64,000 bases of DNA from Mesorhizobium sp. (GTDB lineage Bacteria; Pseudomonadota; Alphaproteobacteria; Rhizobiales; Rhizobiaceae), in NCBI RefSeq assembly GCF_016793485.1, contig NZ_JAEULZ010000013.1, forward strand, positions 62,001 through 126,000. The letters are read 5' to 3'. Numbering within the stretch: position 1 is the first letter of the stretch; every line of letters starts with the position of its first letter. Both the position numbers and the translations under genes were made by a program. Positions 2,128-17,022 of the stretch are shown here, in pieces. The notes below the pieces were generated by a model that saw only the letters and a program-made list of their open reading frames with translations, did not search any database and was not told the origin of the DNA.

Positions 2128-2188
2128 AAGAAAATAGATCTACGCAGCGCCGTTGGGGGAGCGGCGGCAACGGAGCAGGACAAAAGAG

Positions 2189-4342
2189 ATGGCCGAGCGG
2201 TCGTTCGCCAAGGAAGTCGAGAAGCTGAGGCTGGGTGAAGGCGAGGAGTTCGCCGGCGAGGGCATCCTCGCCATCACCAAGGCGCTGCTGCAATGCGGCG
2301 TCGGCTATGTCGGCGGCTATCAGGGCGCGCCGATCAGCCACCTGATGGATGTGCTGGCGGACGCGCAGGACATTCTGGGCGAACTTGGCGTTCATTTCGA
2401 GGCGTCGGCCTCCGAGGCCACCGCAACCGCGATGCTTGCCGCGTCCGTGCATTATCCGATCCGGGGCGCCGCCACCTTCAAGTCGACAGTCGGCACCAAT
2501 GTTGCCTCCGATGCGCTCGCCAACCTTGCGTCTGGTGGCGTGACGGGAGGCGCTCTCATAATCGTGGGCGAGGACTACGGCGAAGGCTCCTCGATCATGC
2601 AGGAACGCAGCCACGCCTTCGCGATGAAGAGTCAGGTCTGGCTGCTCGATCCGCGCCCGAACCTGCCATCCATCGTGCAGGCAGTGGAACATGGATTCGA
2701 GCTCTCGGAGGTGTCTAACACGCCCGTCATGCTGCAGGTGCGCATCCGCTGTTGCCATGTGCATGGCAAGTTCATCGCCAAGAACAACAAGCGCCCGGCG
2801 ATGACGGTCGCCGATGCGCTGGAAAACCCGCGCCGCGACACCGGTCGCATCGTGCTGCCGCCAGCTTCCTTCCTGCACGAGAAGGAGAAGGTGGCGAAGC
2901 GCTGGCCGGCGGCGGTCGACTATATCCGCAAGAACGGGATCAACGAGTTCTTCGGACCCGATGCGGGCTCAGTCGGCATCGTCATGCAGGGCGGCATGTA
3001 CAATGCGGTCATCCGCGCGCTGCAGCGTCTTGGGCTGGCCGACGCCTATGGCGAGACCGACGTGCCGCTTTACGTGCTGAACGCGGTCTATCCGCTCATC
3101 GACGACGAGTTCCTCACCTTCTGCGAAGGCAAGGATTCCGTTCTCGTTGTCGAGGAAGGCCAGCCGAACTACATCGAGCAGGCCTTTGCCGCCATGCTGC
3201 ACAAGGCCGGCCGCGGCACGCGCCTCGTCGGCAAGGAATACCTGCCTGTCGCCGGGGAATATACAGGGCAGGTCATGCTGGACAGTCTGGGTGCCTTTCT
3301 GCGCGCCGAGGCGCCGCAGCTTCTGTCGGCAGAAATCCGCGCGCCGAACAAGATGGGCGGCGGCGAGGAAATTCCTGATCTCAGCAAAGTCGTGCCGGGC
3401 CGTCCACCGGGCTTCTGCGTCGGCTGCCCGGAGCGCCCGATCTTCGCCGCGACCAAGCTGGTCGAGCAGGAACTCGGCAAACACCACATCGCCTCCGACA
3501 TCGGCTGTCACCTCTTCTCGATCATGCCGCCCTTCGAACTCGGCGCGACGACGATGGGCTACGGCCTCGGGCCGGCCTCCGCGTCCGCCTTCAACGCGCC
3601 GGAAGCCAAACGCCGTTCCATCTCCTTCGTCGGCGACGGTGGCTTCTGGCACAACGGCCTGACGTCCTCGATCGGCAACGCGGTCTTCAACAAGAATGAC
3701 GGCGTCATTGTTGTCGTCGACAATTTCTACTCGGCGGCGACGGGCGGGCAGGACATCCTGTCGTCGCGCGCCAACAACCGGACGAAATCCACCCAGCACC
3801 CGATCACCAAGGCGATCGAGGGCATGGGCGTGAAATGGCTGCGCCATATCGACCGCACCTACGATGTCGGCAAGATGCAGGCCACGCTGAAGGAAGCGCT
3901 GACGACCGAGGAGAAGGGCCCGAAGGTCATCGTCGCCTCGTCGGAATGCATGCTGAACAAGCAGCGTCGCGAGAAGCCGCTGGTCAACCAGGCGATCAAG
4001 GACGGCGCGCGTGTCGTGAAGCCGAAATTCGGCGTCGACGAGGACATCTGCACGGGCGACCACGCCTGCATGCGACTGTCCGGCTGCCCCTCGCTGTCGG
4101 TGAAGTCGCTGGACGATCCGCTGCGCGATGATCCGGTGGCGAGCATCGACCAGAATTGCGTCGGCTGTGGCAATTGCGGCGAGGTGGCGGACGCGGCTGT
4201 GCTCTGCCCGTCCTTCTACCGCGCCGATGTCGTGCATAATCCGAGCGGCTGGGACCGTTTCCTCGACCGCATGCGCGGCGCCGTGATCGGCTTCCTCCAG
4301 CGCCGCCGCGAGCGCCGCCGGCTGGTCTTCGCCGATGCTTGA
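2189..4342 (+). CDS. iorA: Indolepyruvate ferredoxin oxidoreductase, alpha subunit
   Basis: This subunit (717 residues from the ATG at 2189, with AGGA about 8 bases upstream) would oxidatively decarboxylate aryl pyruvates such as indolepyruvate to acyl-CoA with ferredoxin as acceptor. An N-terminal pyrimidine domain precedes the TPP-binding motif GDGGFW...VVVDN around residues 495-520. The C-terminus carries a ferredoxin-like domain: one group is CVGCGNC plus a later CP, while the first reads CTGDHAC with Asp where the second Cys normally sits. A TTG at 2153 would add 12 residues but lacks a convincing ribosome site. The stop overlaps iorB by 8 bases. Confidence 0.9.
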   Translation: MAERSFAKEVEKLRLGEGEEFAGEGILAITKALLQCGVGYVGGYQGAPISHLMDVLADAQDILGELGVHFEASASEATATAMLAASVHYPIRGAATFKSTVGTNVASDALANLASGGVTGGALIIVGEDYGEGSSIMQERSHAFAMKSQVWLLDPRPNLPSIVQAVEHGFELSEVSNTPVMLQVRIRCCHVHGKFIAKNNKRPAMTVADALENPRRDTGRIVLPPASFLHEKEKVAKRWPAAVDYIRKNGINEFFGPDAGSVGIVMQGGMYNAVIRALQRLGLADAYGETDVPLYVLNAVYPLIDDEFLTFCEGKDSVLVVEEGQPNYIEQAFAAMLHKAGRGTRLVGKEYLPVAGEYTGQVMLDSLGAFLRAEAPQLLSAEIRAPNKMGGGEEIPDLSKVVPGRPPGFCVGCPERPIFAATKLVEQELGKHHIASDIGCHLFSIMPPFELGATTMGYGLGPASASAFNAPEAKRRSISFVGDGGFWHNGLTSSIGNAVFNKNDGVIVVVDNFYSAATGGQDILSSRANNRTKSTQHPITKAIEGMGVKWLRHIDRTYDVGKMQATLKEALTTEEKGPKVIVASSECMLNKQRREKPLVNQAIKDGARVVKPKFGVDEDICTGDHACMRLSGCPSLSVKSLDDPLRDDPVASIDQNCVGCGNCGEVADAAVLCPSFYRADVVHNPSGWDRFLDRMRGAVIGFLQRRRERRRLVFADA

Positions 4343-5960
4343 TATCGTATCCTCGATGCGCGACGTCCCGGCGCGCGGCGACGGCGGGGTGATCAAGATC
4401 GCCATCCTCGCCGTCGGCGGCCAGGGCGGCGGTGTGCTCTCCGACTGGATTGTCGATGTCGCCGAGCGCAACGGCTATCTGGCGCAGTCGACATCGGTCG
4501 CGGGCGTGGCGCAGCGCACGGGTGCGACGATCTACTATATCGAGATGTGTCCCGACAAAGGCCGCCTGCCGGTCTTCGCGCTGTCGCCATCGCAGGGCGA
4601 TGTGGACGTGCTTGTCGCAGCCGAGCTGATGGAAGCCGGGCGAGCCATCATGCGCGGTTTCGTCACGCCTGATAAGACGACGCTGATCGCCTCGTCGCAT
4701 CGCATCGCGGCGGTGTCGGAGAAGATCGAACCCGGCGACGGCCGCGCGTCCTCGGCGAAGGTACGCGAGACGGCCGAACTAGCCTCGAAGCGCTTCATCG
4801 CCTTCGACATGGAAAAGATCGCCGTGCAAAACGGCTCGGTCGTCTCCTCGAGCCTGTTCGGCGCGCTGGCCGGCTCCAGCGTATTGCCCTTCCCGCGCGA
4901 GACTTACGAGGCGACGATCAGCGCCTCAGGTCGTGGCGTGAAGGCCAGCCTCGCGGCCTTTGGCGGCGGCTACAACGGCGCGCGCGGCCGCGGTGTCGAG
5001 ATCACACATCCCGTTGTGCCGGGCGGTCCCGACGATCAGGCTGCCGCGCACAGCCCAGTCAGTTCCGCGACGGCCGCCGATGGAGCCGAGCCGGTCGAAA
5101 ACAATGGCCCTGATGTGGAAGGCCCGCGCCGGCTCGTTGCCGGCTGGCAGGAACTGACCGCCCGCATCGAGGAGATGCCGGTGCCGGTGCGCGACATGGC
5201 GCTGCGTGGCCTGCGCAAGGTGGTCGACTATCAGGACATGCGCTACGGCGAGGAATATCTCGACCGTCTCGACCGGGCGCTTATGCTGGACGCCGAAGAG
5301 CAGGGTTACGCGCTCTCCATCGCAGCGGCGAAACATCTCGCCAACGCGCTCTGCTACGACGACATGATCCGCGTCGCCGACCTGAAGACGCGCTCGACGC
5401 GTGGTGCGCGCGTCCGCCGCGAGGTTGGCGTCAAGGATGACGCTATCCTGCAGACGACGGAATATTTCCACCCGCGCGTCGAGGAATTCTGCGGCGCGAT
5501 GCCGGCGACCATCGGCAGCTACATCGAGAACCGCCCGAAGTTGTCGGCCTTCATAGATCGCCGCATCAACAAGGGCCGCCGCATCCGAACCGACAGCTTT
5601 ACCGGCTTCGCGATGCTCTGGATGATCGGCGGCATGCGTCGCTGGCGGCGCGGCCTGCTCCGGCACCGGGTCGAACAGGCGCATCTCGACCGGTGGTACG
5701 ATTTGGCGCTGGCGACAGTCCCGAAGGACTACGCGCTGGCGGTGGAAATCCTGAACACGCGCCGCCTGATCAAGGGTTACAGCGACACCCATGTCCGCGC
5801 GCGGTCCAAATTCGACCGCGTTCTCTCGGCCCTGCCAATGCTGAAAGGCCGCCCCGACGCCGCCGACTGGCTGCGTCGCCTGCGCGAGGCAGCGCTCAAG
5901 GACGAGAAGGGCGACATGCTCGACGGCGCGCTGAAGACGGTGGCGACGCTAGGCGACTGA
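4335..5960 (+). CDS. iorB: Indolepyruvate ferredoxin oxidoreductase, beta subunit with C-terminal extension
   Basis: The first ~200 residues form the gamma-type domain of 2-oxoacid:ferredoxin oxidoreductases (IAILAVGGQGGGVLSDWIV, then SVAGVAQRTGATIYYIE), which completes the IorA active site. A divergent tail of about 300 residues (DUF6537-like, with DMRYGEEYLDRLDR) follows; its function is unknown to me. At 541 residues the protein is much longer than archaeal IorB (~200). The ATG lies inside the end of iorA, giving an 8-base overlap and strong translational coupling. Confidence 0.88.
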   Translation: MLDIVSSMRDVPARGDGGVIKIAILAVGGQGGGVLSDWIVDVAERNGYLAQSTSVAGVAQRTGATIYYIEMCPDKGRLPVFALSPSQGDVDVLVAAELMEAGRAIMRGFVTPDKTTLIASSHRIAAVSEKIEPGDGRASSAKVRETAELASKRFIAFDMEKIAVQNGSVVSSSLFGALAGSSVLPFPRETYEATISASGRGVKASLAAFGGGYNGARGRGVEITHPVVPGGPDDQAAAHSPVSSATAADGAEPVENNGPDVEGPRRLVAGWQELTARIEEMPVPVRDMALRGLRKVVDYQDMRYGEEYLDRLDRALMLDAEEQGYALSIAAAKHLANALCYDDMIRVADLKTRSTRGARVRREVGVKDDAILQTTEYFHPRVEEFCGAMPATIGSYIENRPKLSAFIDRRINKGRRIRTDSFTGFAMLWMIGGMRRWRRGLLRHRVEQAHLDRWYDLALATVPKDYALAVEILNTRRLIKGYSDTHVRARSKFDRVLSALPMLKGRPDAADWLRRLREAALKDEKGDMLDGALKTVATLGD

Positions 5961-5965
5961 CCAAA

Positions 5966-5995
5966 TTGACTTTTGTCAGTGGTCGTGACTATTGT
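5966..5995 (+). promoter_or_regulatory. Candidate promoter of the SorC regulator gene
   Basis: TTGACT (5966-5971) and TATTGT (5990-5995) are separated by 18 bases, a plausible sigma-70 pair. TGAC-TTTT-GTCA (5967-5978) is a small inverted repeat overlapping the -35, and ATTGAC and ATTGTC hexamers here match those in the 13742-13770 palindrome. The -10 ends only five bases before the ATG at 6001, which would make the transcript nearly leaderless. Confidence 0.45.
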
Positions 5996-6000
5996 CGGGA

Positions 6001-6966
6001 ATGGCAATCCGACCGGCAGACCAGATCGTCCACAAGGCTGCGTGGCTCTATTATGCGCACGGCCTGAGGCAGGATCAGGTCGCGCAGCAGCTTAACATTT
6101 CGCGCGCCTCCGTCGCCATGTATCTGCGCAAGGCGCGCGAGACGGGCATCGTCAACATATCGACCTCGACGCAACTTTTCACCGACGATCTGATGGCGCG
6201 CGAGATCGAGGATGCTTATGGCCTCGACGCGGTCTGGATTGCGCCGCACGGCGACCATGTCGATCCGGCCGCCGAAGTGCCGGTGCTGGCGGCGGGCGTC
6301 TTTCTCGAACTGGTCGGCAAGGGCGACCGCATCGGCGTCGCCTGGGGACAGACGGTCTATGCGATCGCCGACGTCATGGCCTATGCCGATCTGCAGCACG
6401 TCACCGTCGTCCAGCTCTGCGGCAATCTGGGCGCGCCCTTCGCCTATCGCCCCGACCAGTGCACGATGGAGATCGCGCGCCGGCTTAACGCCAAGGGGCT
6501 CAATTTCTATGCGCCGCTCGTGCTTTCGACCGAGGAACTGGCGAAGCAGCTTCGCGACGAACCGGTGATCCGCGAACAGCTCGCGGGCATTTCCGACTGC
6601 GACCTCGCGCTCTATTCGGTCGGCACCGTCGATTCCGAAAGCCACGTCGTCAAATGCGGCGCGCTGACCGTGGCCGAGATGGACGCACTGCGCCGGGAGG
6701 GGGCCGCGGGCGTCATCGCCGGCCAGATCGTCGACGCCGAGGGCGCGCTGCTCGATTGCAGCTACAACCGCCGCGCCATCTCGGCTGACCTCGCCTCGCT
6801 GCGCGCCATTCCGAAGCGGCTTGTGGTCGTGCAGGAACCAAGCAAGTTCGAGCCCCTGCTTGCCGGGCTCGCCGGTGGGCTCTGCACCCACCTTGTCATC
6901 AACGCGGCGATGGCGTCGCGGCTCCTCGAACACGCGAAAGCGGCATCCCGGCGCAAGGCATCCTGA
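6001..6966 (+). CDS. SorC/DeoR-type sugar-binding transcriptional regulator
   Basis: An N-terminal helix-turn-helix (AWLYYAHGLRQDQVAQQLNI then SRASVAMYLRKARETGIV, residues ~13-50) is followed by a sugar-phosphate binding domain of the SorC family. Key stretches include RIGVAWGQTVYAIA and VVQLCGNLGAPFAYRP. Family members sense phosphorylated sugars or polyols and control adjacent catabolic operons. It sits directly upstream of the aldolase-dehydrogenase and near the ABC transporter and mtnKA, so it is the obvious local regulator. A TTG at 5992 is an alternative start; neither start has a good Shine-Dalgarno. A polyol regulator such as EryD is a related possibility. Confidence 0.85.
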   Translation: MAIRPADQIVHKAAWLYYAHGLRQDQVAQQLNISRASVAMYLRKARETGIVNISTSTQLFTDDLMAREIEDAYGLDAVWIAPHGDHVDPAAEVPVLAAGVFLELVGKGDRIGVAWGQTVYAIADVMAYADLQHVTVVQLCGNLGAPFAYRPDQCTMEIARRLNAKGLNFYAPLVLSTEELAKQLRDEPVIREQLAGISDCDLALYSVGTVDSESHVVKCGALTVAEMDALRREGAAGVIAGQIVDAEGALLDCSYNRRAISADLASLRAIPKRLVVVQEPSKFEPLLAGLAGGLCTHLVINAAMASRLLEHAKAASRRKAS

Positions 6967-7037
6967 GACCTGCGACCTGTCATCCGCCTGTCGCCAAAAC
7001 CAATCAAACGCAAACTTCGAAAACCTGGGAAGAAACG

Positions 7038-9092
7038 ATGAAGAACCTTTGGAACGACGCCGAAGCCGAGAAGCTGGTGGAGCAGTATGCCGCCAAGGGC
7101 GTCGGCCGCGAATTGGCGCTGCGTGTCTACACGACCCGGCTGCTCGGCGGCGATCCGCGCCTCGTGCTGCATGGCGGCGGCAACACCTCGGTGAAGTCGA
7201 AGGCCGTCGATCTCGTCGGCGACGAATGGGACGTGCTCTGCGTCAAGGGCAGCGGCTGGGACATGGGCGTGATCGAGCCGCAGGGTCTTCCCGCAGTCAA
7301 GCTCGGCGCGCTGCTGAAGGCGCGCAAGCTCGACCGGCTGTCCGACGAGGACATGGTCGCTTTGCAGCGCGCCAACCTCATCGACCCGTCCTCGCCCAAC
7401 CCGTCGGTCGAAACGCTGCTGCACGCCTTCCTGCCGCACAAGTTCGTCGACCACACGCATTCGACGGCGATCCTTGGCTTGGTCGACCAGGACAACAGCG
7501 AGGAGATCTGCCGCGAGGTCTACGGCAAGACCTTCGGCTTCGTGCCGTACATCATGCCGGGCTTCGATCTCGCCAAGGCAGCGGCTGAGGTGTTCGAGAA
7601 GGACACGTCGGTCATCGGCCTGATCCTCGACAAGCACGGCATCTTCACCTTCGGTGATACCGCCGAGGAAGCCTACACGCGCATGATCGATGCGGTGACC
7701 AAGGCCGAGGACTACATCGCCAAGGGCAAGAAGCCTGCCGCACCCAAGGCCGCGCTGCCGGCGAACGTCGCCAAGCCTGCCGAAATCGCATCGACGCTGC
7801 GCGGCGCAGTCGCGGTGGACAAGGGCGAGGGGCACTTCGACCGCATGATCAGCGACTTCCGTGTTTCGGACGCAATCCTCGATTTCCTCTCGTCCTCGAA
7901 GCTCGGTGAACTCGCGGCGAGCGGCGTCTCGACGCCCGACCTGTCGATCCGCATAAAGACTGGCCCGATGGCGCTGCCCGCGCCGGAGGCCGGAAAGCTC
8001 GGTGATTACACCAAGATCGTGAAAGAGCACGTCGCGCAGTTCGCCAGCGACTACCGTGCCTATTTCGAGACCAACGACGCGGCCGATGATGTCAAACGCA
8101 CCATGCTCGACCAGATGCCGCGCCTCAGCCTGGTGCCGGGAGTCGGCATGTTCGGCCACGGTCGCACGCTGAAGGATGCCAAGATCGCGTCCGATGTCGG
8201 CGAGATGTGGATCGAGGCCGTGAAGGGCGCAGAGGCGATCGGTACGTTCAAGCCGCTCTCCAAGGCCGACCTCTTCCCGCTGGAATACTGGTCGCTGGAA
8301 CAGGCCAAGCTCGCCTCCAACAAGCCGAAGCCGCTGACCGGTCAGGTGATGCTGGTTACAGGCGGCGCGGGCGCGATCGGTGCGGCGACGGCGAAGCTGT
8401 TCGCTGACTACGGCGCGCATGTCGTGGTCGTCGATCTCGACGCCGAAAAGGCGGCGGATTCGGCCAGAAAGGCCGGCAACAACTCTATCGGCGTCGGCGC
8501 TGATGTAACCGACCCCGCCTCGGTCCGCGCCGCCTTCGACAAGGCGGTGGCGGTCTATGGCGGCATCGACATCCTCGTCTCCAACGCCGGTGCTGCCTGG
8601 GAAGGCAAGATCGGCGAGATCGATGACGCGCTGCTGCGCAAGAGCTTCGAGCTCAACTTCTTCGCCCACCAGACGGCCGCTCAGAACGCGGTGCGCATCA
8701 TGCGCGAGCAGGGCACCGGCGGCGCACTCCTGTTCAACGCTTCCAAGCAGGCAGTGAACCCCGGCGCGAAGTTCGGCGCCTACGGCCTGCCAAAGGCTGC
8801 GACGCTCTTCCTGTCGCGCCAGTACGCGCTGGAATACGGCGCCGACGGCATCCGCTCCAACGCGGTCAACGCCGACCGCATCCGCTCCGGCCTGCTGACC
8901 GACTCGATGATCGCCAACCGCTCAGGCGCTCGCGGCGTTTCGGAGAAGGAATACATGTCCGGCAACCTGCTCGGGCAGGAGGTCACCGCCTTCGACGTGG
9001 CACAGGCCTTCCTGCACCACGCGCTGGCCGAACGCACCACCGCCGATGTCACCACGGTCGACGGCGGCAACATCGCGGCGGCGTTGAGGTAA
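7038..9092 (+). CDS. Bifunctional class II aldolase / short-chain dehydrogenase (RhaD-ADH type)
   Basis: Two enzymes are fused in 684 residues. The N-terminal class II aldolase has HGGGNTSVK near 45 and metal ligands DHTH (His139, His141) and DKHG (His200). The C-terminal Rossmann domain starts around 437 with VTGGAGAIG and has Tyr582 and Lys586 in the YxxxK arrangement. The family is named for rhamnulose-1-phosphate aldolase/lactaldehyde dehydrogenase, giving DHAP plus an aldehyde that is then redox-processed. No rhamnose genes are present here; mtnK and mtnA are, so 5-methylthioribulose-1-phosphate or 5-deoxyribulose-1-phosphate is the likelier substrate. The start has GGGAAGAAAC upstream. 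Confidence 0.88.
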   Translation: MKNLWNDAEAEKLVEQYAAKGVGRELALRVYTTRLLGGDPRLVLHGGGNTSVKSKAVDLVGDEWDVLCVKGSGWDMGVIEPQGLPAVKLGALLKARKLDRLSDEDMVALQRANLIDPSSPNPSVETLLHAFLPHKFVDHTHSTAILGLVDQDNSEEICREVYGKTFGFVPYIMPGFDLAKAAAEVFEKDTSVIGLILDKHGIFTFGDTAEEAYTRMIDAVTKAEDYIAKGKKPAAPKAALPANVAKPAEIASTLRGAVAVDKGEGHFDRMISDFRVSDAILDFLSSSKLGELAASGVSTPDLSIRIKTGPMALPAPEAGKLGDYTKIVKEHVAQFASDYRAYFETNDAADDVKRTMLDQMPRLSLVPGVGMFGHGRTLKDAKIASDVGEMWIEAVKGAEAIGTFKPLSKADLFPLEYWSLEQAKLASNKPKPLTGQVMLVTGGAGAIGAATAKLFADYGAHVVVVDLDAEKAADSARKAGNNSIGVGADVTDPASVRAAFDKAVAVYGGIDILVSNAGAAWEGKIGEIDDALLRKSFELNFFAHQTAAQNAVRIMREQGTGGALLFNASKQAVNPGAKFGAYGLPKAATLFLSRQYALEYGADGIRSNAVNADRIRSGLLTDSMIANRSGARGVSEKEYMSGNLLGQEVTAFDVAQAFLHHALAERTTADVTTVDGGNIAAALR

Positions 9093-9104
9093 GATGCCTT
9101 CTGG

Positions 9105-9170
9105 TTGAAAGTTCAACTGGTCCGATCTACATTGATGCGTGATGTTTGATGCGCATGCTGGGATCGGACC
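9105..9170 (+). promoter_or_regulatory. vapBC promoter with overlapping inverted repeats
   Basis: TTGAAA (9105-9110) and TACATT (9128-9133) are separated by 17 bases. GTTGAA-AG-TTCAAC (9104-9117) overlaps the -35. A second inverted repeat has arms GGTCCGATC (9119-9127), abutting the -10, and GATCGGACC (9162-9170), ending one base before the vapB ATG. Such sites fit autorepression by the VapBC complex. Confidence 0.6.
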
Positions 9171-9395
9171 ATGCGGACTACTCTGGCGATTGATGACGAT
9201 GTGCTCGTGGTGGCAAAAGCCATGGCCGAGCAGCAGAACCGTAGCCTCGGTGAAGTCATCTCGGAACTCGCGCGAAAGTCGCTCAAGCGGCCGCGTCAGC
9301 GCGCTGAACGCAATGGTGTTCCTCTGCTTGGCGTAAAGCCGGGTGCATTGGTCACACAGGATATAGTCAACGCCCTGCGTGACGAGCTTCCGTGA
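9171..9395 (+). CDS. vapB: VapB-type antitoxin
   Basis: This 74-residue protein begins MRTTLAIDDDVLVVAKAMA, the ribbon-helix-helix start seen in VapB antitoxins that bind DNA as dimers, followed by SLGEVISELARKSL. Its C-terminal half would neutralise the PIN toxin. The stop codon overlaps the GTG start of the toxin gene by four bases (GTGA), the usual coupled arrangement. It lies between the aldolase gene and the ABC transporter but does not share their function. Confidence 0.85.
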   Translation: MRTTLAIDDDVLVVAKAMAEQQNRSLGEVISELARKSLKRPRQRAERNGVPLLGVKPGALVTQDIVNALRDELP

Positions 9396-9826
9396 CCTAT
9401 CTTCTCGACGTCAATGTGCTGATAGCGCTGATCGATCCCGCTCATGTGGCCCATGATGCGGCACACGAATGGTTCGAGAGGGAAGGGCATCAGGATTGGG
9501 CGACATGCCCGATGACCGAGAATGGCGTGATGCGCATCGTCGGCCATCCCAAGTATCCGAACTCGCCGGGTTCACCTTCAGAAGTCGCTGCCATCGTTGC
9601 ACGTTTGCGCGCGCTGGCCGGGCATAGGTTCTGGGTGGATGACATCAGTCTCGTCGCTATTGATATCGTCCAGCCGGAACACGTTCTGACATCTGCGCAG
9701 GTGACCGACACCTACCTTCTTGCCTTGGCGAAAGCGCATGGTGGCAAGCTTGTGACATTCGACCGCCGTTTATCGGTCGCCGCGGTAAAGGGCGGAAAGT
9801 CGGCGCTTCATATTATCGGCAACTGA
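9392..9826 (+). CDS. vapC: VapC-type PIN-domain ribonuclease toxin
   Basis: This is a 144-residue PIN-domain protein. The first conserved acidic residue is in LLDVNVLIALID (Asp6), later acidic residues follow in the TDTYLLALAKAHGGKLVTFDRRL segment, and the order matches VapC toxins that cleave tRNA or rRNA. It starts with GTG overlapping the vapB stop. A strong bidirectional terminator follows directly, separating the module from the convergent transporter gene. Confidence 0.87.
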   Translation: MTYLLDVNVLIALIDPAHVAHDAAHEWFEREGHQDWATCPMTENGVMRIVGHPKYPNSPGSPSEVAAIVARLRALAGHRFWVDDISLVAIDIVQPEHVLTSAQVTDTYLLALAKAHGGKLVTFDRRLSVAAVKGGKSALHIIGN

Positions 9827-9836
9827 CCGTTCAAAC

Positions 9837-9868
9837 AAAAAAGGCGGGTCAAATGACCCGCCTTTTCC
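9837..9868. terminator. Bidirectional intrinsic terminator between vapC and the substrate-binding protein gene
   Basis: Arms GGCGGGTCA (9843-9851) and TGACCCGCC (9854-9862) are flanked by A-runs on the left and T-runs on the right, so it serves both converging transcripts. The hairpin is the strongest terminator in the window. Confidence 0.9.
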
Positions 9869-9889
9869 TTGGTCGAGACGGCCGAAAGA

Positions 9890-10942
9890 TCATTTGCCCG
9901 GCAGGGCGATCCACGGCGAGATGGCGACCTCGGCATGGGCGAACTGCGGCAGCTTGGCCGAGAGCTCTTCCATGTTCTTGATGTCGTTGTCGTTGAGGTC
10001 CTTCTGCGTGATCAGCGTCGGCGGGATGATGACCGACTGGCCGACTTCCTCGCCGGCGAGGAGCTGCGCCAGAGCGCGCACCGACACCTGGCCGACGACG
10101 GCCGGGTTGGTAGCGGCGGTGGCGACCCAGGCGCTGCCCGGCTCGCGCATCGCGGCGATGTCGGAGGTCGAGACGTCGGCGGAGTAGATCTTGATGTCCG
10201 ACGACAGACCGGCTTCGTCGACCGCGATCTTCACGCCCTTGGCGAATTCGTCATAGGGGGCGAACATCACCTGGATGCCGGGGTTGGCGGTCAGCACCGA
10301 ACGGGCCTGGTTGGCGACCGAGTTGGCGATCGGGTTGTCGAGCGTGCCGAACATGGCGACTTCCTCGATGCCCGGATACTTGGCCTTGAACTCCTTCCAC
10401 GTCTCGTCGCGACGGTCGAGCGGCGCGATGCCGGCGACGTAGACATAGCCGGCCTTCCAGGCCTCGCCATTGTCCTTCACGGCCTGCTCGAGAGCCAGCC
10501 TTGCGAGGTCGCGGTCGGACTGCTCGATCTGCGGGATCTTCGGGTTCTCGACGTTCACGTCAAAGGCCACCACCTTGATGCCGGCGTCGACCGCGCGCTG
10601 TGCGGCTTCCTTCATCGATTCCGTCAGGCCGTGCTGGATGATGATGCCATCAACGCCGAGCGCGATCGCCTGGTCGACCATGTCGGCCTGCAGCGCTGCG
10701 TCCTGACGGCTGTCGAAGACGCGCAGGTCGACGCCGAGCGCCTTTGCCTGTGCTTCCACGCCCGAGAGATAGGCCTGGAAGAAGTCGCCGGTCGAGAGAT
10801 AGCGCACCAGCGCGATCTTCACGTCGCCCGGCTTGTCGAAGGGTGCCGGCTTGTCCTGCGCCATCGCGGGCGCCGAGATCAGGCAGCTTGCGGCGGCAAG
10901 ACCGACTGCCAGCTTACCCAGGGTTCTACGCGTAAAGTTCAT
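9890..10942 (-). CDS. Ribose-type ABC transporter, periplasmic substrate-binding protein
   Basis: This 350-residue exported protein has a signal peptide ending near AMA-Q at residue 28. The start reads TRRTLGK, which resembles a twin-arginine motif, so Tat export is possible. The mature part is a Peripla_BP_4 (RbsB-like) pentose-binding fold: VALVR-type first strand, DGIIIQHG, VVAFDVNVENP and AAIREPGSAWV-like hinge segments. It is the last gene of an ATPase-permease-binding-protein operon read leftwards. The ligand is inferred from divergent mtnK/mtnA: a methylthioribose or 5-deoxyribose-like pentose. Ribose or another sugar is the alternative. Confidence 0.87.
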   Translation of the reverse strand: MNFTRRTLGKLAVGLAAASCLISAPAMAQDKPAPFDKPGDVKIALVRYLSTGDFFQAYLSGVEAQAKALGVDLRVFDSRQDAALQADMVDQAIALGVDGIIIQHGLTESMKEAAQRAVDAGIKVVAFDVNVENPKIPQIEQSDRDLARLALEQAVKDNGEAWKAGYVYVAGIAPLDRRDETWKEFKAKYPGIEEVAMFGTLDNPIANSVANQARSVLTANPGIQVMFAPYDEFAKGVKIAVDEAGLSSDIKIYSADVSTSDIAAMREPGSAWVATAATNPAVVGQVSVRALAQLLAGEEVGQSVIIPPTLITQKDLNDNDIKNMEELSAKLPQFAHAEVAISPWIALPGK

Positions 10943-10978
10943 TTAATCCTCCACTCGATGTTTGGTCGGTTGCGTTGT

Positions 10979-11974
10979 TTAGGTTCTGCCCTTGTTCGAA
11001 AGGGCAAAGGTGAAGACGAGGGCCACGACCAGGACCGCCCCCTTCACGAAATCCTGCGTGTAGTAGGGCGCGTTCATCATGGTCAGGCCTTGCAGAAGGA
11101 TGCCGACGAACAGCGCGCCCACTGCGGTGCCGAATGCGTTGGGCTTGGCAGCCCCCAGCACGGCAAAGCCGATGAGCGCCGCCGCAACTGAATCCAGCAG
11201 CAGATTGTTACCCGATGCGATGTCGCCGCGTCCAAGTCGCGCCGCGAGCAAAATGCCGCTGATTGAGGCGAAAACACCCGAAATCACATAGGCCCAGATT
11301 TTATATGCCTTGACAGGCGCGCCGGCGAGTTCGGCCGCCTTCGGATTGCTGCCGACGGCGTACATCATTCTCCCGAAGCGGGTGTATTCGAGGAAGAACC
11401 AGATCAGCACTGCCAGCACCACCAGCACCACCACCGACACCGGTATGAGGTTCGGCAGGATGAAGTCGAAGCGATGGCGGCCGAGCGCCAGGAACGCTCC
11501 GCTGAAGGTGCCGTTGGCCGTCGAGCCGTCCGGCATCGTCATGCCGGTCGCGATCGAACGACCTTCGGTGGGGATGCGCTGCAGGCCGACCAGCAGGAAC
11601 ATCATGCCGAGCGTCGCAAGCAGGTCCGGCACGCGCATGTAGACGATCAGGTAGCCGTTGATCAGGCCGACCACGACGCCGATGGCAAGACATACCACCA
11701 CCGCCACGAAGGCGTTCTGCTCCATGATGACCATGACATAGGCGGCAGCCATCATGGCCGTCGTCGCCACCGAGCCGATCGACAGGTCGAAGCCGCCGAC
11801 GACCAGCGTCGCGGTGACGCCGAGCGCCAGGATTCCGGTGATCGCGACCGACTGGAAGATGAAGACGGCAGCCTGCGGCGATGCGAATCCGTCGGTGGAC
11901 ACCGTGAAGAAGACCACCAGCCCGACGAGCAGGGCGATGAAGCCGTAGCGGATGGCGAAGTCGCGAAGGGTCAT
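10979..11974 (-). CDS. Ribose-type ABC transporter permease
   Basis: This RbsC-type permease (BPD_transp_2) has many hydrophobic segments and the family signature region AVGSNPKAAELAGAPVKAYKIWAYVISG. I place the start at the ATG at 11974 (MTLRDFAIRYGF, 331 residues). The reading frame stays open further upstream, but that extension would be translated from the palindromic repeat at 12019-12174 and looks spurious. It lies between the ATPase and binding-protein genes of the same operon. Confidence 0.87.
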   Translation of the reverse strand: MTLRDFAIRYGFIALLVGLVVFFTVSTDGFASPQAAVFIFQSVAITGILALGVTATLVVGGFDLSIGSVATTAMMAAAYVMVIMEQNAFVAVVVCLAIGVVVGLINGYLIVYMRVPDLLATLGMMFLLVGLQRIPTEGRSIATGMTMPDGSTANGTFSGAFLALGRHRFDFILPNLIPVSVVVLVVLAVLIWFFLEYTRFGRMMYAVGSNPKAAELAGAPVKAYKIWAYVISGVFASISGILLAARLGRGDIASGNNLLLDSVAAALIGFAVLGAAKPNAFGTAVGALFVGILLQGLTMMNAPYYTQDFVKGAVLVVALVFTFALSNKGRT

Positions 11975-12018
11975 GGATGCATCCGGAATATCGACTTGCG
12001 CAGTCCGCGCTTTGACAC

Positions 12019-12174
12019 GCCCCCCTCTGGCCTGCCGGCCATCTCCCCCACGAGGAGGGAGATTGGCAGCTTCGGCCACATCGCCTTTTTAGAGACGTGG
12101 GAGGTTGGCGAAAGACTTGATGATGGTTGATCTCCCCCCTTGTGGGGGAGATGGCCGGCAGGCCAGAGGGGGGC
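12019..12174. repeat. Inverted pair of palindromic elements between transporter genes
   Basis: Two copies of a ~46-bp unit face each other: left arm 12019-12064 (GCCCCCCTCTGG, CCTGCCGGCC, ATCTCCCCCAC) and right arm 12129-12174 as its near-perfect reverse complement, about 64 bp apart. Each unit contains its own small hairpin (ATCTCCC/GGGAGAT). This family is widespread in rhizobia and is often mistranslated as proline/glycine-rich peptides. It sits inside the ABC operon between the ATPase and permease genes. Confidence 0.85.
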
Positions 12175-12197
12175 GCGAAGGAACGCTACGCTTACCA

Positions 12198-13706
12198 TTA
12201 AGCCGCACCCTTCAGAGGCTGCCCGGCGATTTCGGCAAGCAGCCGGTCGATGTCGACCTCGGCGTTGCGGTGTTCGCCGACGATCGTGTGTTCGGACATG
12301 ACGAGGATGCGGTCGGCGGTTTCGAGCGCTTCGTCCAGTTCGGTGACGAACACCAGCGTGGCGCGTCCTTCGGCGCTCGCGCGCAGCTTGTTGGCGATGT
12401 CGCGCCGCGCCGCGATGTCGACGCCCTGGAACGGTTCGTCGAGGATGAAGAGGTTTGCATCCTGCGACATCCAGCGCGCCACCATCACCTTCTGCTGGTT
12501 GCCACCGGAAAGCGTCGCCATGTCGTCGCGCTCCGAGCGGCAGACGATCTTCAGGTCGCTGATCGCGTCGCGCGCCACCGCGCGTTCCGTCCGGCGCGGC
12601 ACGACCGACAGCCGTGAAATGCGGTCGAGGAAGGGCAGGCTCAGGTTCTCGTAAAGATTGAAGTCCTTGATGATCCCACTCTCGGCGCGGTCCTTGGCGA
12701 CGAGGAACACACCCGCCGTGATGGCGTCGGCCGTGGATCCTGGCGCATAGGCCTTGCCGTTCAGCATCATCGTTCCGCCGAGCGGCGGGCGCACGCCGAA
12801 CAGCGTTTCGGCCAGCGCCGTCTTGCCGACGCCGACAAGGCCGGTGATGGCGACGATCTCTCCATCTCCGAGTTTCAGCGAGAAGGGTTTTGCGTGTTCG
12901 GCGATGCGCAGACCTTCGGCCGAGAAGATCGTGTGGGCGCCGTCGCGCGCGGCAATCTCGGCGCGGTGCATGGTCCGGCCCAGCATGGCGTTGACCGCGC
13001 CCTCATAGTCGAGCGGCTTGGTGTCGAACGTGCCGGTAATGCGCCCGTCGCGCAGGCTGACGATGCGGTCGGCAAGCCGCCTGATGTCGGACATGCGGTG
13101 CGAGATGTAGAGGATGGCCACTCCGCGCTCGCGCAGCCGGTCGACCACCTCGAAAAGCCGGTTGGCTTCGGCGCTGGACAGCGAGGACGTCGGCTCGTCG
13201 AGGATCAGCACCTTGGGTTCGTGCGCCATGGCGCGGGCGATCGCCACCATCTGCCGGTCCGCCAGCGACAGGTCGCTGATCTCGGCGTTGAGGTCGACGT
13301 CGAGCCCCATGCGCGCGGCGACCTCGCGGGCCTGCCTGCGCACCGCGCGAGGATTGAAGAACAGTTTCGCGCCCTTGCCGTTCAGCCGGTCGAGGGTGAG
13401 GTTGGTGGCCACGTCGAGCGCCACCACGACGCCGTCATTGATGTTCTGGTGCACGGTGACCACGCCGGCGCGGATCGCATCGGCGGGGGAGGCGGGGGCG
13501 AAATCCTTGCCGTCCATCGTGATCGTGCCGCCGTCGCGGTCGTAGACGCCGGAGACAATGCGCACGAGGGTGGACTTGCCGGCCCCGTTCGCGCCCATGA
13601 GCACAGTCACCTCGCCGGCGTGAAGCTCAAGGCTCACGCCGCCAAGCACCTGCGTCGGACCGAACGACTTCTTCAGGTCCGCTATGCGGAACACGGGGTC
13701 TGCCAT
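12198..13706 (-). CDS. Ribose-type ABC transporter, double ATPase subunit
   Basis: RbsA-like protein of 502 residues with two nucleotide-binding domains. The first has Walker A GANGAGKST, signature LSLADRQ and Walker B LILDEPTSS. The second has GLVGVGKTA, signature LSGGNQQK and FILDEPFQG; its Walker A departs from consensus, as is usual for this family. The ATG at 13706 is chosen because GGGAGGAG sits just upstream; a GTG at 13718 would add four residues overlapping that site. It is the first gene of the leftward transporter operon, divergent from mtnK. Confidence 0.9.
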   Translation of the reverse strand: MADPVFRIADLKKSFGPTQVLGGVSLELHAGEVTVLMGANGAGKSTLVRIVSGVYDRDGGTITMDGKDFAPASPADAIRAGVVTVHQNINDGVVVALDVATNLTLDRLNGKGAKLFFNPRAVRRQAREVAARMGLDVDLNAEISDLSLADRQMVAIARAMAHEPKVLILDEPTSSLSSAEANRLFEVVDRLRERGVAILYISHRMSDIRRLADRIVSLRDGRITGTFDTKPLDYEGAVNAMLGRTMHRAEIAARDGAHTIFSAEGLRIAEHAKPFSLKLGDGEIVAITGLVGVGKTALAETLFGVRPPLGGTMMLNGKAYAPGSTADAITAGVFLVAKDRAESGIIKDFNLYENLSLPFLDRISRLSVVPRRTERAVARDAISDLKIVCRSERDDMATLSGGNQQKVMVARWMSQDANLFILDEPFQGVDIAARRDIANKLRASAEGRATLVFVTELDEALETADRILVMSEHTIVGEHRNAEVDIDRLLAEIAGQPLKGAA

Positions 13707-13741
13707 TACTCCTCCCACGCACGGACGCTATGGAGTTGTTC

Positions 13742-13770
13742 GGCAATTGTCAATACGATTGACAATTGCC
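13742..13770. promoter_or_regulatory. Perfect 29-bp palindromic operator between divergent transporter and mtnKA operons
   Basis: Arms GGCAATTGTCAAT (13742-13754) and ATTGACAATTGCC (13758-13770) flank ACG with no mismatch. The right arm contains TTGACA (13759-13764), 17 bases before TAGGTT (13782-13787) toward mtnK. The left arm contains the same hexamer on the minus strand, 17 bases before TAGCGT toward the ATPase gene. One bound dimer could therefore block both promoters. Confidence 0.75.
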
Positions 13771-13820
13771 AGAGTGGCTCATAGGTTTCGCGCCAAAAGG
13801 AAGGCCAAGGGAGGAATGGC

Positions 13821-15122
13821 ATGAGCAAAGCCGAGGCTTTTCAGGCTCTGACGATCGAGACGCTGCCAGCGCGACTCGGAAGCGTAGACGCCCTGACGTC
13901 GCGCATCGGAAAAGACTCCTCGCACTGGAAGGTGAAGGAAGTTGGTGACGGCAATTTGAACCTCGTCTTCATTGTCACAGGCGACAAGGGCGCGGCGATC
14001 GTCAAGCAGGCGCTCCCCTATGTCCGCCTCGTGGGCGAGAGCTGGCCGCTGCCGCTGAAGCGCTCCTTCTTCGAATATCATGCGCTGGTCCGTCAGGAAG
14101 CCCGCGCGGGCGTCGGCACCGTGCCTGCGATCTACCATTTCGACGAGGCGCAGGCGCTGATCGTCATGGAGTTCCTGACGCCGCACATCATTCTGCGCCG
14201 GGCGCTGATCGAAGGCCGTATGCCGCCGAAGATCGCGAACGACCTCGGCCTATTCGTAGCCCGCACATTGTTCCGCGGCTCCGATCTGTCGATGACGGCG
14301 CGGGGGCGGAAAGAAGACCTTGCGCTGTTTGCCGACAATGTCGAGCTCTGCGACATCAGCGAAAACCTCGTCTTCACTGACCCATATTACGAGGCCAAGC
14401 TTAATCGACATACCTCGCCCCAGCTCGACGCTTTGGTGGAGCAGATGAGGTCTCATACGGAACTGAAGGTCGAAGCTCAGCGCTTGAAACATCTCTTCGC
14501 TACGAAGGCCGAGACTCTGGTCCATGGGGATCTGCACACCGGCTCGATCATGGTGACCGATGACGACACGCGGGTCATAGATCCGGAGTTTGCGTTCTAC
14601 GGACCGATGGCATTCGACGTTGGCATGCTGATGGCAAATTTCTGGATGAGCTTTTTCTCCCAGAGAGGACATGAGCGGGAAGGCAGCCGGGCGGCGCAAA
14701 GAGATTGGCTACTCGGCGTCATCGTTGAAATCTGGGAGACCTTCCGCGTGGAGTTCGAACGGCTCTGGCACTCGGAGCGGAACGGAATGCTGTACTCCAG
14801 AAGCGTATTTGAGGATCAAGGTGACGATGCAGGATCGAGCGCTGCTCTGATCGGCCTGATCAGTCAGATGGAAGAGGATATGCTTGGCTTTGCCGGCGTA
14901 GAGATTCACCGCCGGATCCTCGGTCTGGCTCATAACGCGGACTTCGAAAACATCGAAGACACCGACTCTCGCGCTGCATGCGAGGCCAGAGCGCTGCAGT
15001 TCGCCACTTCCATAATAATAAATGCCAAGTTCTCCATGAGTTTGGAGGACGCTGTGACGCTTGCGCGAGATTGCGACGATGGGCGGTTGCCTCTCGACTC
15101 AGACGAAGGACACTCGCAATGA
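13821..15122 (+). CDS. mtnK: S-methyl-5-thioribose kinase
   Basis: This enzyme phosphorylates 5-methylthioribose at C1 using ATP in MTA salvage. The 433 residues show the aminoglycoside-phosphotransferase-like kinase fold with the MtnK signatures: [13 protein letters not shown] (40-52), the ATP-binding Lys62 in VKQALPYVR, catalytic HGDLHTGS (235-242) and [16 protein letters not shown] (from 253). The length matches the family. GGGAGGAA precedes the ATG. The stop overlaps mtnA by four bases (ATGA). Some MtnK enzymes also accept 5-deoxyribose. The gene starts 51 bases after the operator palindrome. Confidence 0.95.
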
Positions 15123-16225
15123 AAGTCGGAGATCGCCACTATCGCACCATCTGGCTGAACGAGGACGGCCGTTCGGTCGACATCATCGACCAGCGCTGGC
15201 TGCCGCACGAGTTCCGCATCGTGAAGGTTGAGACCGTCGAAGGCATTGCGATTGCGATCCGCGACATGTGGGTGCGCGGCGCGCCGCTGATCGGCGTTAC
15301 GGCCGCCTATGGCGTCGCGCTGCAGATGCGTGAGGATGCGTCCGACGCCGCACTTGAAAAGGTGTGGCACGAGCTAAACGAGACGCGGCCGACCGCGATC
15401 AACCTGCGCTGGGCGCTGAACGAGATGAAGCGCGTGCTGTCGCCGCTGCCGGTTTCCGAGCGCGCCGCCGCCGCCTACCGGCGTGCCGCCGAAATCGCCG
15501 ACGAGGACGTCGAGCTCAACCGCTCGATCGGCCGCCACGGCCTCGAGGTCATCAAGGCCATTGCCGCGAAGAAAAAGCCCGGCGAGCGCGTCAACATCCT
15601 GACCCATTGCAACGCGGGATGGCTTGCGACCGTCGACTACGGCACTGCGACAGCGCCGATCTACCTCGCCGTCGAGGCCGGCATTCCGGTCCACGTCTAT
15701 GTCGACGAGACGCGCCCGCGCAATCAGGGCGCACAGTTGACGGCGTGGGAGATGGCAGGCCACGGCGTGCCGCACACGCTGATCGTGGACAATGCCGGCG
15801 GCCATTTCATGCAGCACGGCATGGTCGATATGGTGATCGTCGGCACCGACCGCACCACCGCCAATGGCGACGTCTGCAACAAGATCGGCACCTATCTCAA
15901 GGCGCTCGCCGCCCACGACAACGGCGTGCCCTTCTATGTCGGCCTGCCGTCGCCCACCATCGACTGGACGGTGCATGACGGCGTGAAGGAAATCCCGATC
16001 GAGGAGCGTTCCGCCGACGAGGTATCCTACGTGCAGGGCAAGGCGGCATCCGGCGAAATCGCGCTGGTCCGCATTTCGCCTGAGAACTCTCCCGCCGCCA
16101 ATCCCGCCTTCGATGTCACGCCCGCGCGTCTCATCACCGGCCTCATCACCGAACGCGGCATCGCCAAAGCGTCGCCGGAAGGGTTGAAGGCGCTGTTCCC
16201 GGAACGCGTGAAGAGCGCGGCCTGA
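15119..16225 (+). CDS. mtnA: S-methyl-5-thioribose-1-phosphate isomerase
   Basis: This 368-residue eIF2B-like isomerase converts 5-methylthioribose-1-phosphate to 5-methylthioribulose-1-phosphate. The catalytic Cys164 is in LTHCNAG and the catalytic Asp244 is in [23 protein letters not shown] near residue 50 is also typical. The ATG at 15119 overlaps the mtnK stop and has GAAGGA upstream, so it is translationally coupled. None of the downstream Yang-cycle genes (mtnB, mtnC, mtnD) follow; the next genes are a toxin-antitoxin pair. The product therefore probably goes to the class II aldolase of this cluster. Confidence 0.95.
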
Positions 16226-16229
16226 TCGG

Positions 16230-16296
16230 AATTCCCAAATCGGGAATTTTGCTTGCGCGTTAAGGTGCAGGTCGCTATATTCCCGTCTTGGGAATA
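16230..16296 (+). promoter_or_regulatory. higBA promoter with two matched operators
   Basis: AATTCCC-AAATC-GGGAATT (16230-16248) and TATTCCC-GTCTT-GGGAATA (16278-16296) are two inverted repeats with 7-bp arms and 5-base spacers, centres 48 bp apart. TTGCGC (16253-16258) and TATATT (16276-16281), 17 apart, form the promoter between them, with the second operator covering the -10. Confidence 0.75.
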
Positions 16297-16303
16297 AGGC
16301 GGC

Positions 16304-16606
16304 ATGAGGGTCATCGCGCAGAGCAGGCTTGTTCGATACTGGCAGAAGCATCCGGCCGCGAAGCCATCCTTGGTTCACTGGTATCAGGTGACCACGGCTT
16401 CACGATGGGAGCAGACGCAGGACGTGTTGGCGGCTTTTTCAAAAGCCAAGGTACTCAACGCGGAGCGCGTCCGCTTCGAGATAAGCGGAGGAGACTATCG
16501 TCTGGTCGTCGCGTTCGATTTCAGGCGACAGATCGCCTTCGTCAAGTTTCTTGGAACGCATGCTGAATATGACCGCATCGACGCGCTGAAAGTTTCGCTT
16601 TTCTAG
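16304..16606 (+). CDS. higB: HigB-family mRNA interferase toxin
   Basis: This 100-residue protein matches the HigB_toxin family: an N-terminal QSRLVRYWQKHP helix, a central VLNAERVRFEISGGDYRLVVAFDF strand region, and the terminal VKFLGTHAEYDRID signature with His and Tyr. These toxins cleave mRNA at the ribosome. The toxin gene comes first, as is usual for higBA. The antitoxin gene begins 12 bases after its stop. Confidence 0.88.
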   Translation: MRVIAQSRLVRYWQKHPAAKPSLVHWYQVTTASRWEQTQDVLAAFSKAKVLNAERVRFEISGGDYRLVVAFDFRRQIAFVKFLGTHAEYDRIDALKVSLF

Positions 16607-16617
16607 GAAGCAGCAGA

Positions 16618-17022
16618 ATGGATATTCGCCCTATTCGGACCCTCTCGGATTACGAGAATGCGCTGCGTGAGATCGAACATCTTTGGGGCGCTGAAATCGG
16701 TACTCCCAAAGGTGACAAACTCGATGTGCTGGTGACTCTCGTGGAGGCCTACGAAAAAGTGCACTGGCCGATTGAAGCTGCCGACCCGATCGAGTTGATC
16801 AAATCACATATGGAAGCGTCGGGCCTTACTCAGGCCGACCTGGGCGCCGTGCTAAGATCTCCGCCGCGGGCCTCTGAAATTCTCAGTCGCAAGCGGGCCC
16901 TGTCGATGGATATGGTCTATCGCCTCAATCGCGAATGGCATTTGCCGGCGGATCAACTGATCCGCCCGTATCATCTTGCCGCGGAGCAGACTAGTCGGCG
17001 TTCGTCGGAGCGAGACAGGTAG
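16618..17022 (+). CDS. higA: HigA-type antitoxin with XRE helix-turn-helix
   Basis: This 134-residue antitoxin has a toxin-binding N-terminal part (IRTLSDYENALREIEHLW) and a C-terminal HTH domain near residues 60-115 (SGLTQADLGAVL, then SEILSRKRALSMDMV). It should bind and inhibit HigB and, with it, repress the promoter at 16230-16296 that carries two identical-looking operators. Confidence 0.88.
   Translation: MDIRPIRTLSDYENALREIEHLWGAEIGTPKGDKLDVLVTLVEAYEKVHWPIEAADPIELIKSHMEASGLTQADLGAVLRSPPRASEILSRKRALSMDMVYRLNREWHLPADQLIRPYHLAAEQTSRRSSERDR

Follow-up and report, generated by a model that had tools for sequence, protein, structure and literature searches.

Which sugar is taken up and degraded by a gene cluster that unites a SorC-type regulator, a three-gene ATP-binding cassette (ABC) importer, a fusion of a class II aldolase with a short-chain dehydrogenase/reductase (SDR) and the mtnK-mtnA pair? 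The question is raised by a locus of Mesorhizobium sp. in a stretch of 64,000 nucleotides (assembly GCF_016793485.1, contig NZ_JAEULZ010000013.1, positions 62,001 to 126,000 of the forward strand), the whole of which is called the window below. An initial sequence-only reading had listed these components, including the overlap of mtnK with mtnA, and all of them proved to be open frames in the place indicated, with matches to curated families (Table 1). Judged by sequence comparison the cluster would encode, with a probability of about 0.78, the co-regulated uptake of 5-methylthioribose (MTR), probably of 5-deoxyribose too, joined to a dihydroxyacetone phosphate (DHAP) shunt with an oxidative end.

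In the proposed pathway the periplasmic binding protein would capture MTR, as its likeness to the solved protein 4RY8 suggests, and the permease and ATPase would import it, after which, from what is known of their families, MtnK should phosphorylate MTR and MtnA isomerise the product to 5-methylthioribulose 1-phosphate; both enzymes are recognized by profile score (TIGR01767 and TIGR00512). A class II aldolase domain (PF00596) is present in the fusion, where it takes the slot of the FucA-type aldolases of related loci, and it is predicted from gene neighbourhoods and from the exclusion of FucA-type genes to cleave the MtnA product into DHAP and (methylthio)acetaldehyde, with acetaldehyde arising from 5-deoxyribose. 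The fused SDR would remove the aldehyde, and oxidation with NAD to (methylthio)acetate or acetate is more probable here than reduction, a prediction guided by the RhaEW fusions (rhamnulose-1-phosphate aldolase/lactaldehyde dehydrogenase) and the least certain step of the pathway. MTR released inside the cell by methylthioadenosine/S-adenosylhomocysteine (MTA/SAH) nucleosidase could also enter at MtnK.

Ligand of the Importer

The binding protein, the permease and the ATPase belong clearly to their Pfam families, and all three stay below the cut-off of every NCBIfam sugar equivalog; for the binding protein none of the sugar-binding equivalogs, those for ribose, rhamnose and allose included, comes near its cut-off. 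Among PDB sequences the binding protein matches 4RY8 with 225.2 bits, followed by 5ULB with 142.8, and proteins named ribose-binding reach 45–65. A Foldseek search with its structure model (mean predicted local distance difference test, pLDDT, 87.6) also returned 4RY8 at rank 1 (E 3.2e-33, 38% identity), which makes this entry the closest solved relative both by sequence and by fold. Its title is “Crystal structure of 5-methylthioribose transporter solute binding protein TLET_1677 from Thermotoga lettingae TMO”. The two proteins are alike over about 315 columns; however, Tlet_1677 comes from another phylum than the window host and its ligand is named by the structure title only, and a literature search found no paper on 4RY8 or Tlet_1677. 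In alignments the binding protein and 4RY8 have D-V/L and (Y/W)DEFAKG where ribose-binding proteins have DR and NDEMALG, at positions which we take to contact the ligand. MTR is proposed from these likenesses as the cargo of the importer.

A search of 398 genomes of the phylum, started from the binding protein, turned up 18 places. All 12 proteins with at least 79% identity stand beside mtnK: the window's own, those of ten mtnK loci and one in a further genome (G600). The six more distant ones are considered with the points against the proposed function.

Neighbourhoods of mtnK and of the Fusion

Of 397 genomes of the order, 103 have mtnK, at a total of 111 places; 81 of these were examined for their neighbourhoods (the window and 80 chosen by hand; the 30 omitted are mostly more members of sampled genera or second, distant copies), with gene calls in the relatives made by a custom codon-pair scorer. 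In this survey of mtnK homologues, of the kind suggested by the sequence-only reading, the importer is present in 48 of the 81 places, and the fusion in 18 of those 48. Each of the 48 also has one or more gene sets that would be expected to work on the product of MtnA, namely the fusion alone (12), the fusion with a RuBisCO-like protein and a split transketolase (6), a FucA-type aldolase alone (16), a FucA-type aldolase with RuBisCO-like protein and transketolase (2), RuBisCO-like protein and transketolase (6), a transketolase pair at a contig end (1), MtnB with MtnD (4), or MtnD alone (1). Among the 33 places lacking the importer, two have the fusion, four a FucA-type aldolase, one MtnB with MtnD, and 26 none of these; the survey had no column for MtnC, and two places scored as none (L120, L121) carry an MtnC-like gene, profile-checked in L120. 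The importer thus stays constant while the downstream enzymes vary, which suggests the MtnK substrate as its cargo. Fusion and FucA-type aldolase, each in 18 of the 48, never occur in one locus (hypergeometric probability 1.2e-5, phylogeny ignored), and this mutual exclusion indicates that the fusion occupies the aldolase slot. The label “FucA-type” is a clustering of 22 members; the four that were profile-checked all matched L-fuculose-phosphate aldolase best, under its cut-off. Four loci (L114, L116, L118, L119) hold two importer-type binding proteins, mtnK, mtnB and mtnD together, and L114 also carries MTA/SAH-deaminase-like and nucleoside-hydrolase-like genes.

The module of a RuBisCO-like protein and a two-gene split transketolase follows mtnK-mtnA, in company with the importer, in 14 of the 81 places; an example is L038:14369-17432 of Pararhizobium, and the same genes are found in L039, L041, L042 and others. 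The RuBisCO-like protein lies far below the MtnW cut-off (157.1 vs 513.6); a possible role would be to turn the MtnA product into an isomer that the transketolase can use.

The reverse survey started from the fusion, with one genome per species scanned. In the best 80 of at least 583 confirmed matches MtnK is present in 71 loci, the full core in 69 and a RuBisCO-like protein in 14; all 13 queries came from mtnK loci, which biases the MtnK count. Chance could hardly produce such an arrangement. Of the 11 loci that lack the complete core, four are cut by contig ends (L159, L163, L168, L188), five have no MtnK, and two (L145, L147) keep regulator, fusion, mtnK and mtnA and miss only the importer. 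The order mtnK-mtnA-fusion without importer was also seen in L123 and L124, and Gemmatirosa, of another phylum (Gemmatimonadota), has mtnK, mtnA and the fusion side by side, the kinase being over the MtnK cut-off, with no importer match within 20 kb.

The Aldolase/Dehydrogenase Fusion

A maximum-likelihood tree of 35 rows places a long, fully supported branch between 31 of them and the remaining four, which are a Persicobacter protein and three rhamnose-locus enzymes with rhaI, rhaM and rhaS alongside. At position 125 all 27 MTR-linked, orphan and Gemmatirosa rows have Glu and all three rhamnose rows Asp; position 540 is Asn in the window fusion and Leu in the rhamnose rows. His139, His141, His200 and the SDR residues Ser569-Tyr582-Lys586 are common to both groups. 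All these residues are presumably active-site residues. The SDR domain also has Asp466, which we assume to fit the use of NAD(H). The model of the fusion (mean pLDDT 82.8) falls below 50 at residues 37-48, 73-82, 519-527, 572-582 and 677-684, near active-site positions, and its geometry was left unused; Foldseek returned just the folds expected for its two domains. On Sinorhizobium meliloti pSymB (L045:10001-11251), genes annotated as an autoinducer-2 (lsr) importer are followed by a class II aldolase that lacks the SDR domain and shares about 44% identity with the aldolase part of the fusion.

Proposed Regulation

A palindrome lies in the gap between the ATPase gene and mtnK. Its core, TGTCAA-5-TTGACA, occurs exactly and once each in 67 of 67 such gaps from the relatives and the window (ATPase and MtnK both over 60% identity and less than 400 bases apart; hosts mostly Mesorhizobium and close kin), 19 of which had served to read off the core; in total 69 exact sites were counted in 1,702,934 bases, and the window holds one site against 0.04 expected when up to one mismatch is allowed. 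The second element, TTGACTTTTGTC, lies upstream of the regulator in 71 of the 73 cases from the relatives and the window, L177 and L193 being the exceptions. More distant loci show the core with a mismatch, the second element only, or neither. This distribution supports the view that the palindrome and TTGACTTTTGTC mark one regulon, and the SorC-type regulator would probably act at both.

Salvage Routes in the Host Genome

The host assembly (5.2 Mb, 52 contigs) has no match to acireductone dioxygenase (MtnD), and its best acireductone-synthase (MtnC) match reaches 24.6 bits where the cut-off requires 128.1. It encodes three class II aldolases. Besides the window fusion these are a 3-oxo-tetronate 4-phosphate decarboxylase, over cut-off and beside its kinase, for which MtnB scores 59 with a cut-off of 137.05, and a PRK06486-type protein, also over cut-off, for which the MtnB model was not reported. 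The claim that mtnB, mtnC and mtnD are lacking therefore extends from the locus to the whole assembly as far as searched, in which none of them exceeds its cut-off. Classical methionine salvage, with its MtnB, MtnC or MtnW/MtnX, and MtnD, was accordingly not found, and there is no MtnB-MtnC-MtnD route over cut-off to carry the flux in place of the DHAP shunt. The MTA-isoprenoid shunt would call for a RuBisCO-like isomerase, and the genome has no PF00016 match.

The genome does encode an MTA/SAH nucleosidase (L007, TIGR01705 338.1 bits, cut-off 152.2), so internal MTA can become MTR and feed MtnK. The sequence-only reading had seen a scavenging DHAP shunt for external 5-deoxypentoses rather than salvage of internal MTA. 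The comparisons favour its first half, uptake joined to a shunt; the exclusion of internal MTA did not stand, given the nucleosidase and the loci of L123, L124, L145, L147 and Gemmatirosa that have the enzymes and lack the importer. The system would probably serve both external MTR and MTR derived from internal MTA. A 593-residue protein of the same genome (L006:208-1989) was observed to carry a nucleoside-phosphorylase-type match in its C-terminal part only.

Alternative Explanations

The sequence-only reading had left room for an aldolase acting only on rhamnulose 1-phosphate and for a binding protein preferring ribose, and by sequence both appear to point elsewhere. If the fusion were RhaEW lying beside mtnK-mtnA by chance, this would explain the identical domain architecture, the 32–37% identity to rhamnose-locus fusions and the 481.6 bits obtained with the rhamnulose-1-phosphate aldolase/SDR equivalog TIGR02632; but that score is under the cut-off of 567.75 while NF006192 is exceeded, the tree separates the two groups, E125 and N540 are replaced in all three rhamnose rows, the neighbours are the importer, mtnK and mtnA instead of a rha locus, and MtnK recurs through the fusion loci. 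In addition, the rhamnose isomerase TIGR02635 reaches 31.5 bits in the genome against a cut-off of 531.35 (the search covered this isomerase family, and neither other rhamnose isomerases nor the kinase). A rhamnose enzyme was rejected on these cut-offs, isomerase search, tree and residues, and is highly improbable. It is scarcely credible, too, that the importer takes plain ribose or another common sugar, with mtnK-mtnA acting on that sugar or on something unrelated: the ribose-type ABC superfamily would allow it, but the RbsB equivalog gives 53 bits against a cut-off of 337, 4RY8 is far closer by sequence and fold, the motifs agree with 4RY8 and not with ribose-binding proteins, and this importer family is found with mtnK whichever of four downstream gene sets is present. 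The ribose importer was rejected on the equivalog scores, the 4RY8 matches and the motifs.

Two further alternatives leave the enzymes in place. In one, these mainly clear MTR or 5-deoxyribose made inside the cell and the importer just recaptures leakage, as the nucleosidase and the five importer-free loci named above would permit; yet 69 of 80 fusion loci retain the importer, which has its promoter gap and operator in common with mtnK; an inducible importer fits an outside source better, and this explanation is rather unlikely. In the other, the pathway runs as proposed but the SDR reduces the aldehyde to 2-methylthioethanol or ethanol, the known DHAP-shunt products. SDR enzymes run both ways, and Asp466 would presumably suit NADH as well. 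The available text of two papers gives 2-methylthioethanol as the product in Escherichia coli and Rhodopseudomonas palustris (PMC10986504, PMC5893883). Against this, RhaEW fusions of the same architecture, at only about 32–37% identity, are described in the accessible part of their report as oxidising with NAD, no activity being seen with NADH (PMC3870299). Reduction is thus a doubtful but serious candidate, and oxidation of the aldehyde is preferred as the prediction.

Several observations weigh against the proposed uptake and shunt. The six binding proteins with 57–63% identity, out of the 18 places in the phylum, have no mtnK in the fetched stretch (0 of 6), and two of their genomes (G023, G187) have no MtnK match anywhere in the mtnK search. 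Five of the 80 fusion loci (L181, L196, L200, L204, L206) have no MtnK in reach. The fusions of L044, L208 and L209, about 50% identical and with no mtnK nearby, fall among the 31 tree rows, which means that the wider family of fusions is not tied to MTR; the annotated neighbours in L044 and L209 are glycerol-phosphate dehydrogenases and a sugar ABC importer. The S. meliloti pSymB locus holds regulator, importer, mtnK and mtnA but lacks an aldolase, and the mutual-exclusion figure above takes no account of phylogeny. Finally, the C4 configuration of rhamnulose-1-phosphate aldolases is not that of the MTR product, and from sequence it cannot be told whether the fusion is of the appropriate kind.

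In three of the six loci with distant binding proteins (L216, L220, L221) the binding protein adjoins an SfnB-like sulfur-acquisition gene, over cut-off in L216 (652.2 vs 430.9) and under it in L220 and L221, and L221 also has an NtaA/DmoA-family monooxygenase over cut-off. The profile check covered these three; L218, viewed by eye, showed no such gene, and L217 and L219 were left out. There are hints here that the wider ligand class of these binding proteins contains sulfur.

Organization of the Locus

The regulator and the fusion read rightward, the three importer genes leftward and mtnK-mtnA again rightward; ATPase gene and mtnK diverge across a gap of 102 bases, and mtnA overlaps mtnK by 4 bases. 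The DeoR and LsrR equivalogs match the regulator below their cut-offs.

Table 1. Features of the proposed methylthioribose locus (positions in the window).
Feature	Position	Strand	Evidence and remarks
Element TTGACTTTTGTC, possible autoregulatory site	5966-5977	+	upstream of regulator gene, once in window
SorC-type sugar-binding transcriptional regulator	5992-6966	+	likely start 6001; PF04198 sugar-binding domain 165.1 bits, cut-off 27
Class II aldolase/SDR (NAD-type) fusion	7038-9092	+	NF006192 1116.8 bits, cut-off 639; PF00596 and PF00106
Small 74-residue frame, possible antitoxin partner of the VapC-type gene	9171-9395	+	overlaps VapC frame
VapC-type PIN-domain toxin	9392-9826	+	TIGR00028 103.4 bits, cut-off 73.6
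Periplasmic binding protein, proposed 5-methylthioribose ligand	9890-10942	-	PF13407; 4RY8 match
ABC importer permease	10979-12079	-	PF02653 142.1 bits
ABC importer ATPase, two ATPase domains	12198-13718	-	PF00005, two stretches
Palindrome GGCAATTGTCAA-5-TTGACAATTGCC, proposed operator	13742-13770		in importer/mtnK gap
mtnK, S-methyl-5-thioribose kinase	13821-15122	+	TIGR01767 477.6 bits, cut-off 275; 2OLC methylthioribose kinase 256.6 bits
mtnA, S-methyl-5-thioribose-1-phosphate isomerase	15119-16225	+	TIGR00512 439.1 bits, cut-off 279; 1T9K 270.4 bits

The VapC-type gene and its small partner (9171-9826) sit between the fusion and the binding protein gene. The only Pfam match of the small frame is DUF6364, below cut-off (23.7 vs 27.3 bits), and the pair has no match in PADLOC-DB. 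A VapC relative is found in one of the 80 fusion loci (L205, Mesorhizobium sp. YM1C-6-2), and the annotation of Pararhizobium L038 shows a VapB antitoxin in the corresponding place; the two frames are probably a passenger. Directly upstream of the cluster (2153-5960) are two genes of an indolepyruvate-oxidoreductase-like enzyme, the second over the PRK08312 cut-off (696.6 vs 348) and the first under that of IOR_alpha, with no sign of a connection to the cluster. An Rfam scan of 5800-16800 gave no family at threshold.

Comparison with Known Systems

MTR is a source of carbon and reduced sulfur, and some bacteria, for example E. coli, are reported in the available text of PMC6302742 to excrete it. 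If the proposed function is true, a dedicated, regulated MTR uptake exists in many rhizobia and relatives, and a generically annotated protein family gains a substrate and a predicted product, methylthioacetate instead of methylthioethanol. The RuBisCO-like/split-transketolase module of the relatives is a lead to the role of another RuBisCO-like group; the available part of a paper on 5-deoxyadenosine salvage (PMC8102628) mentions transketolase. A literature search that covered few subscription papers found none describing the fusion in an MTR role or this module.

Published work describes the DHAP shunt itself, an E. coli able to grow on 5-deoxy sugars and nucleosides supplied from outside, and its operon with a putative transporter (PMC10986504, PMC12632272). 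As far as the accessible text of these papers goes, the system of E. coli ATCC 25922 (mtnK, mtnA, ald2 and the putative transporter) shares with the window MtnK, MtnA, a transporter gene and then an aldolase slot giving DHAP and (methylthio)acetaldehyde or acetaldehyde, the last step being predicted for the window; the window differs in its 4RY8-type ABC importer, its SorC-type regulator and the fusion of its aldolase with a dehydrogenase, where E. coli has an aldolase of the Ald2 type. Beaudoin et al. described clusters of kinase, isomerase and aldolase genes, in some cases with sugar transporters, and suggested that they salvage 5-deoxyribose from outside (PMC6079011), so that this idea is already published; their drdK-drdI-drdA clusters for 5-deoxyribose disposal group kinase, isomerase and class II aldolase as the window does, but the aldolase is of the fuculose-1-phosphate aldolase type, and the available portion of the paper mentions no dehydrogenase fusion. 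RhaEW has the domain order of the window fusion, aldolase then SDR, and its orthologues are described, in the part of PMC3870299 at hand, as always lying in rha loci; the window fusion, unlike them, lies beside mtnK-mtnA, with the low identity and the differences at E125 and N540 given above. In R. palustris, according to the available text of PMC5893883, MTA is handled by parallel pathways, an Ald2 aldolase branch and a RuBisCO-like branch that both start from MTR-derived intermediates within the same organism, a combination also seen in several relatives of the cluster; the window genome, in contrast, has no RuBisCO-family protein, and the relatives pair theirs with a split transketolase.

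In summary, the DHAP shunt and its transporter-linked versions were already known, and the fusion in this role is likely what is new here. By a slight balance the comparisons favour a broader picture, a modular platform for methylthioribose acquisition in which an importer-MtnK-MtnA core is combined with exchangeable handlers: here a new 5-methylthioribulose-1-phosphate aldolase/(methylthio)acetaldehyde dehydrogenase would replace Ald2 and yield methylthioacetate in place of methylthioethanol, and in relatives the same place would be taken by a FucA-type aldolase, by MtnB/MtnD, or by a RuBisCO-like protein with split transketolase that would open a further, undescribed fate for 5-methylthioribulose 1-phosphate.

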